Below, in pieces: positions 2,037 through 61,577 of a stretch of 64,000 nucleotides of DNA. The stretch is from Amphibalanus amphitrite (taxonomy: Eukaryota > Arthropoda > Thecostraca > Balanomorpha > Balanidae). The number at the start of each line of letters is the position of its first letter. The first letter of the stretch is position 1. The notes under the pieces were generated by a model, which was not told where the DNA came from, did not search any database, and saw nothing but the letters and a program-made list of their open reading frames with translations. The stretch is taken from assembly GCF_019059575.1 (NCBI RefSeq), contig NW_024881825.1:434001-498000 (forward strand), given 5' to 3'. A program made the position numbers and the translations under genes.

Positions 2037-2120
2037 TGCGTCGCGTCTTCGTTAACAAACATTTGTTGGCCCCATATGGCCAGCATGGGGTCGGCTATGG
2101 CCGATTTGGTCGTCTGAAAA
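2037..2120 (-). CDS. tomosyn: tomosyn exon e21 (last exon seen)
   Basis: Encodes SFQTTKSAIA and DPMLAIWGQQMFVNED, then ATQ. This segment between the last propeller strands is present in arthropod tomosyn as I remember it and absent from the vertebrate form. Acceptor GTCCCCAG, donor GCA|GTAAGT. Phase 2 in, phase 2 out. The following exon (AKTFCFS-type) was not seen between 1 and 2036, so the C-terminus lies outside the window. Confidence 0.93.

Positions 2121-61577: not shown

Follow-up and report, generated by a model that had tools for sequence, protein, structure and literature searches.

Intronic tandem arrays built from exon–intron junctions in a tomosyn gene of the barnacle Amphibalanus amphitrite

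Near copies of splice junctions, arranged in tandem within the introns, accompany 13 of 46 exon–intron junctions, spread over 12 of 23 exons, in a tomosyn gene (syntaxin-binding protein 5-like) of Amphibalanus amphitrite. The gene lies on the minus strand of the window, that is, the whole 64,000-nucleotide stretch of DNA analyzed (C328:434001-498000; assembly of 807.6 Mb in 2644 contigs). The copies observed are beyond chance similarity, and are placed on the intron side only—acceptor copies upstream and donor copies downstream—at all 13 copied junctions, with none of the 50 arrays in the gene being wholly exonic. Thus, the first-pass annotation, which had counted at least 12 of 21 exons with copies of their ends and had found no copy inside an exon, is borne out on both points. 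Probably, these arrays are neutral, length-variable minisatellites begun by local tandem duplications that chanced to straddle exon–intron junctions.

A protein search with the exons found retrieved P0001-P0006, isoforms named 'syntaxin-binding protein 5-like' that are 84–91% identical to the partial query and are located on a 664,458-base contig; the label "RefSeq proteins" used below was chosen from these isoform names. P0007 and P0008 are located on a contig of 239,503 bases, the length of C1074, which represents the other haplotype. Exon ends were set by mapping seven barnacle proteins (P0001, P0002, P0004-P0007, and P0009) to the minus strand, and this mapping to the window yielded 23 exons separated by GT..AG introns; P0003, P0008, and P0010 were read and stand outside the mapped set, and P0006 represents a cluster of 14 sequences, one of them read. 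The outer ends of the first exon (61577, or 61570 from the protein reading) and of the last exon (2037) were placed by hand; neither has copies, and the counts are the same with either start. Two of the exons are alternative cassettes: exon 7 is present in P0001 and exon 8 in P0002 and P0006, and P0004 and P0005 have neither. A Pfam scan of five open frames of the window gave one match, under the cut-off, and Rfam gave zero matches in the window. The exons referred to below, all on the minus strand, are:

61510..61577, minus strand: exon 1 of the window's gene part, with its donor end from protein mapping; the RefSeq reading suggests a start at 61570
36355..36562, minus strand: exon 5 (LLIGFETGLLVLWDL...), from protein mapping
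30281..30331, minus strand: exon 7, alternative cassette without junction copies, from protein mapping and the copy test
28558..28614, minus strand: exon 8, 57-nt alternative cassette with splice-site arrays on both flanks, from protein mapping and the copy test
23030..23184, minus strand: exon 9, from protein mapping
19665..19869, minus strand: exon 10, from protein mapping
9756-9622, minus strand: exon 13, from protein mapping
8348-8200, minus strand: exon 15, from protein mapping
7851-7674, minus strand: exon 16, from protein mapping
5508-5392, minus strand: exon 18, from protein mapping
4672-4559, minus strand: exon 20, from protein mapping
3016-2825, minus strand: exon 21, from protein mapping
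2492-2384, minus strand: exon 22, from protein mapping

Copies were detected by comparing the 24 bases across each junction, 12 on the exon side and 12 on the intron side, with sequence 15–3000 bp away and allowing up to 4 mismatches. The arrays include 14–64 coding bases and have median periods of 30–108 bp, close to the 15–60 bases and 30–108 bp given by the first-pass annotation; its range of one to about twenty copies held at the minimum of 1, but the maximum is higher, with about 30 donor and 23 acceptor copies, both at exon 8. Tandem head-to-tail units with these periods, as seen in the TRF rows at the arrays, fit the definition of a minisatellite or VNTR, and comparison of copy spacings with array lengths showed the junction to be carried by nearly every unit of the junction arrays. 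Microsatellite-like arrays (3 in the window's gene and 4 in the other haplotype) were removed before arrays were counted. The junction arrays of the window are:

61194..61535, minus strand: donor array of exon 1, 1 copy within 6 mismatches, 26 coding bases inside
36512..37109, minus strand: acceptor array of exon 5, 4 upstream copies spaced 83-96 bp, 51 coding bases; 2 copies in the other haplotype
28592..29991, minus strand: acceptor array of exon 8, 23 upstream copies in 56/72-bp units, AG in all; 3 copies in the other haplotype
25372..28581, minus strand: donor array of exon 8, about 30 downstream copies in 74-141-bp units, GT in all; 16 copies in the other haplotype
22008..23053, minus strand: donor array of exon 9, 19 copies, 17 with GT, units mostly ~30 bp
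19354..19693, minus strand: donor array of exon 10, 10 copies, 30-bp unit, open frame (GTAKQNRYDL)n; 14 copies in the other haplotype
9703..10170, minus strand: acceptor array of exon 13, 2 upstream copies, 108-109 bp
8308..8461, minus strand: acceptor array of exon 15, 1 upstream copy, 100 bp
7048..7713, minus strand: donor array of exon 16, 8 downstream copies, mostly 78-83 bp
5275..5405, minus strand: donor array of exon 18, 2 copies, GT in 1
3643..4622, minus strand: donor array of exon 20, 10 downstream copies, mostly 87-110 bp; 1 copy in the other haplotype
2977..3299, minus strand: acceptor array of exon 21, 3 upstream copies, 78-85 bp
2463..2627, minus strand: acceptor array of exon 22, 1 upstream copy, 79 bp

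Repeats of other kinds are also present in the introns, namely a 15-bp unit repeated 17.7 times away from any junction in intron 3 (window 40402-40664) and long GA dinucleotide tracts (window 24374-24526 and 34449-34612).

Comparison of the two haplotypes of the one assembly showed copy number to be variable between alleles. Their exons are 95–100% identical, and aligned gene pieces, exons included, are mostly 83–95% identical. By the 24-base rule, 11 of 44 exon ends have copies in the other haplotype, and likewise 11 of 44 when P0007, which is without exon 8 and has three 3′ exons in addition, is used. In this comparison, the numbers of copies in the window and in the other haplotype were, respectively, 23 and 3 for the exon 8 acceptor, 28 and 16 for the exon 8 donor, 15 and 22 for the exon 9 donor, 9 and 12 for the exon 10 donor, and 7 and 1 for the exon 20 donor. 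In the count given with the arrays above, the exon 9 donor has 24 copies in the other haplotype, 16 of them with GT. The same rule detected copies at the exon 13 acceptor, exon 15 acceptor, and exon 18 donor in the window only, and at the exon 15 and exon 19 donors in the other haplotype only; a looser array caller found an array over the exon 15 acceptor in the other haplotype too, plus one beside exon 13. With this caller, the 13 junction arrays of the window divide into 8 shared, 0 unique, and 5 unplaced, and the 16 of the other haplotype into 8 shared, 2 unique (exon 11 and exon 19 donors), and 6 unplaced. A change in length of at least 15 bp between haplotypes was observed for 8 of 8 shared junction arrays and 9 of 25 shared intronic arrays (Fisher P = 0.003), or for 8 of 8 and 12 of 25 when counted from the other haplotype (P = 0.012), a contrast weakened in that longer arrays would change length more anyway. 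The presence in the second haplotype of arrays of like kind, with other copy numbers and some arrays of its own, indicates variable-number repeat DNA and hardly an assembly error.

Two stretches of the alignment stand apart. At window 45694-54845 the haplotypes are 98.8–99.7% identical, and the match to the second contig ends on this side, which possibly reflects collapse of the end, a switch of haplotype, or a tract that came to be shared recently; the exons there, 2-3, do not provide an independent second sample. Furthermore, for about 5 kb of intron 3 (window ~40630-45693) no counterpart was listed in the second haplotype, in which the intron is 7185 bp long, and this difference is a haplotype-specific insertion or deletion.

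Whether junctions are overlapped more often than expected hinges on the null, enrichment being absent by bases and present by founding unit. Under a base-coverage null (circular shift), the 13 copied junctions compare with a mean of 8.7, and at least 13 were reached in 21% of shifts (P = 0.21); local copies were found for 19.0% of intron-interior positions versus 28% of junctions. Donors of the window have copies in 32% of cases at the junction and in 23–32% at 20 to 400 bp into the intron, and acceptors in 27% and 18–32%, respectively; the corresponding acceptor values in the other haplotype are 18% and 5–27%, and its donors are not flat, with 32–36% at the junction versus 9–27% from 10 to 400 bp in. 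When instead the unit of each array was randomly placed within 0.5 to 60 kb, 13 of the 50 arrays on junctions in the window compared with 1.8–3.0 expected, none of 4000 placements reaching 13, and 14 of 56 in the other haplotype (16 of 56 with exon 8 added) compared with 2.7–3.7 expected. Since nearly all units carry the junction, the founding units spanned it, and the founding-unit null was therefore judged to be fairer. However, the gene was picked for looking unusual, being one window of an unspecified number, and the P values, post hoc as they are, should not be taken at face value. This choice accounts for some of the excess; random placement does not. Thus, the frequency that the first-pass annotation called striking is an excess by founding unit but not by base coverage.

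Junction arrays are also the larger ones, with median lengths of 468 versus 101 bp for other arrays in the window and 238 versus 98 bp in the other haplotype, and with medians of 8.5 versus 1.8 units and 2.9 versus 2.2 units, respectively. Among arrays of at least 300 bp, 10 of 13 in the window and 6 of 12 in the other haplotype cover a junction. This larger growth is not predicted by neutral placement. In the 3′ exons beyond the window, unseen in the first-pass annotation, 2 of 5 junctions are arrayed, both within a stretch that is 34% duplicated.

Junction use was followed in the proteins. In all six RefSeq proteins mapped (P0001, P0002, and P0004-P0007), only the junction adjoining the intact exon is used, and no additional intron or exon stems from the arrays. 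P0009, annotated on another contig (475,424 bases), uses the last donor of the exon 10 array, whereas the six RefSeq proteins use the first donor only, as judged from protein annotation; it contains 11 exon 10 units in all, the same as in the window. In P0009, ten exon 10 donor-array copies are seemingly translated as YDLGTAKQNR-like repeats (residues ~434-594), and copies next to exon 1 are also read through. These repeats of P0009 probably reflect misannotation prompted by the arrays.

Signs of constraint were sought in the copies themselves. Changes in the exon 10 array number 9 nonsynonymous and 2 synonymous in the window and 4 and 1 in the other haplotype, where counting covered the first 9 of 14 copies, as far as an indel; pooled, this is 13 versus 3, with 70 and 20 possible, and upon removal of the final unit in the window, which extends past the array, 6 to 1 in the window and 10 to 2 pooled. 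These small numbers, from one array, give no sign of coding constraint. No frame preference was detected among copies, with unit spacings occurring in all three modulo-3 classes. For the 142 donor copies of both haplotypes, GT is intact in 131, such that the unit carries a canonical donor, and the per-base identity of GT (0.95 and 0.97) falls within the range of the six flanking positions to each side (0.92–0.99). Conservation of the splice core above its flanks was thus not found in the donor copies, in what is a weak test, the copies having been picked by similarity and being related by descent. In the 43 acceptor copies of both haplotypes, AG has an identity of 1.00 and nearby bases 0.49–1.00, with 23 of the 43 coming from one array.

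Other loci of the genome were sampled for comparison. Positions with local duplicates made up 2.8% of ten random 5-kb pieces (median 1.2%), 3.1% of myosin loci, and 0.2–91% of 5-kb pieces of the window, and this measure increases with GC content (Spearman 0.63). The suggestion that the genome is one of unusual local duplication was not sustained in this small sample, the 2.8% of the random pieces (reach 1500 bp) comparing with about 19% in the gene's introns (reach 3000 bp). Nor did the myosin and kinesin loci, also a small sample, show an excess of arrays on junctions, with 0 of 18 arrays over any of 58 junctions for myosin (0.97 expected) and 2 of 9 for kinesin (68 junctions; 0.89 expected), or 2 of 27 versus 1.86 expected when pooled. 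The exons were found by profile and the splice sites chosen by score near profile ends, some of them wrongly; the myosin sample covers 20 of 30 loci and 31 of the 100 matches listed, one near a locus end remaining uncounted, and the kinesin sample 36 of the 139 matches listed. Here too, microsatellite-like arrays were dropped. Likely haplotype pairs were left in the sample (L015/L018, L022/L025, L032/L034, L036/L039, and L054/L057); removal of one of each pair left 2 of 21 arrays over 108 junctions, with about 1.5 expected. If the tomosyn excess held in these genes, 2 or fewer arrays would have P = 0.013 (pairs still in), and direct comparison of the shares, 13 of 50 versus 2 of 27, gave P = 0.07. 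Kinesin loci L053 and L056 contain one donor-covering array each, indicating that the junction-array pattern occurs, rarely, outside tomosyn. Overall, junction arrays are a feature of tomosyn or like repeat-rich genes, and a genome-wide reach is unsupported by this small sample; overlap at the level of chance, named by the first-pass annotation as the genome-wide outcome that would tell against it, was observed for the myosin and kinesin loci, with tomosyn remaining an outlier.

With respect to origin, we infer both how the arrays arose by mutation and that their copies are neutral for splicing. A duplication straddling a junction would keep the original working junction beside the exon; the spliceosome would stay with that exon-adjacent site, and the additional copies would turn into intron. 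Duplications within exons would be purged by selection, which would result in perfect polarity, and slippage or unequal exchange would lengthen or shorten the arrays, which would make haplotypes differ. A neutral explanation had been put forward in the first-pass annotation, and it agrees with the use of the exon-adjacent junction only in six RefSeq isoforms, the absence of any sign of coding constraint in the array tested, the indifference of the spacings to frame, and the differing haplotype copy numbers. However, the neutral account leaves the number and length of the junction arrays, and the position of the largest ones on junctions, unaccounted for.

This remainder is where another explanation, unlikely on the whole, would have its strength, namely that in highly polymorphic genomes exon edges are hot spots at which minisatellites arise by mutation. 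Introns of homologues differ by about 10% and exons by about 2%, such that pairing and exchange would be concentrated on exons, and misaligned repair would copy an exon edge together with its splice site, with only intron-side copies surviving. The founding-unit excess (13 of 50 versus about 3), the greater length of junction arrays and its change in 8 of 8 compared between haplotypes, the identity of exons as against gene pieces, and two junction arrays that are present in a single haplotype and hence are perhaps young are all in its favor, as is the extreme coding diversity reported, in an excerpt of PMC8270832, for the barnacle Balanus improvisus. It is unlikely, and slightly more so than hot spots in general, that conserved exon edges nucleate minisatellites via exon-anchored pairing, filling introns with intact, unused splice sites. 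Exon-anchored misalignment would predict larger junction arrays, and other genes ought then to show an excess too; the myosin and kinesin exons, with 2 of 27 versus 1.86 expected (and P = 0.013 for 2 or fewer under an excess like that of tomosyn), do not, and the preference of exchange for exons is presumed.

Selection retaining the copies as redundant splice sites, or as decoys or U1-binding sites that tune splicing, chiefly around exon 8, is very unlikely. The two largest arrays do flank this cassette exon, all 23 acceptor copies having AG and all 30 donor copies GT, and AG is intact in 43 of 43 acceptor copies of both haplotypes. However, the selection for redundant splice sites raised in the first-pass annotation is unsupported, GT of the donor copies being no more conserved than its neighbours and a single array supplying most of the invariant AG. 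Furthermore, 2 of 19 exon 9 copies in the window and 8 of 24 in the other haplotype are without GT, the exon 8 acceptor has 23 copies in the window and 3 in the second haplotype, the other cassette, exon 7, is without copies, and none of the six RefSeq isoforms mapped uses a copy. Still less probable is that some arrays are translated, alternative donors extending the protein with in-frame repeats, as at exon 10: the unit there is 30 bp and open, and the annotation of P0009 includes 10 additional YDLGTAKQNR-like units, but the six RefSeq proteins mapped and Pollicipes P0010 pass from the first donor directly to the next exon, differences among copies show no sign of coding constraint, and elsewhere many spacings are not divisible by 3. 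Arrays as translated repeats were rejected on the pattern of changes at exon 10, and frame-preserving arrays on the unit spacings. The chance of an assembly or consensus artefact is slighter again; tandem arrays are hard to assemble and the copy numbers come from assemblies alone, but the contig of the other haplotype bears its own versions of the arrays, and P0009 encodes the window's number of exon 10 units on a third contig, which is not necessarily from an independent assembly or animal. This explanation was rejected on the other haplotype's arrays and the protein mapping. Neutral, length-variable minisatellites thus remain the favored explanation.

A minisatellite with a unit that contains a splice donor at an exon–intron border, and that provides several usable donors at one junction, was reportedly described for human IFI6 in a 1995 paper. 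The tomosyn units likewise carry a splice donor at such a border; unlike the single junction of that single gene, 13 junctions are involved here, acceptors as well as donors, and use of a copy appears in annotation only in P0009. Related processes have been proposed for intron gain. In the portions of PMC4974935 consulted, introns are described as arising by AGGT tandem duplication (ATP2A1/ATP2A2, 24-bp repeats in fission yeast, and potato RdRp), and the Rogers model is one of a tandem duplication holding splice signals with the protein unchanged. Tandem duplication of splice-signal sequence is common to those cases and tomosyn; whereas there, by the same portions, a new intron is formed, in tomosyn an intron border is copied into the same intron, with 0 introns gained in the mapped RefSeq isoforms. 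Variable internal tandem repeats in human duplicated genes, which at boundaries may yield new introns or exon-retained repeats, are treated in part of PMC2812944, and resemble the present arrays in being variable and at exon–intron boundaries. Those repeats concern segmental-duplication genes, and that part does not describe a single gene with such repeats at most of its exons. No report of many arrayed junctions in one gene was found in searches of open-licence literature.

Splice sites in this barnacle gene have been freely multiplied, with dozens of canonical GT/AG copies and up to 30 beside one side of an exon. The copies are apparently ignored by the spliceosome, and so offer a natural test of how the true junction is chosen. 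They also set a trap for annotation, as one deposited barnacle protein seems to render ten array copies as protein repeats. If junctions proved to be hot spots on a wider count, extreme polymorphism would be tied to repeat birth and alternative splicing; and if exon edges do nucleate such arrays, the unused splice-site copies could later become alternative exon ends.
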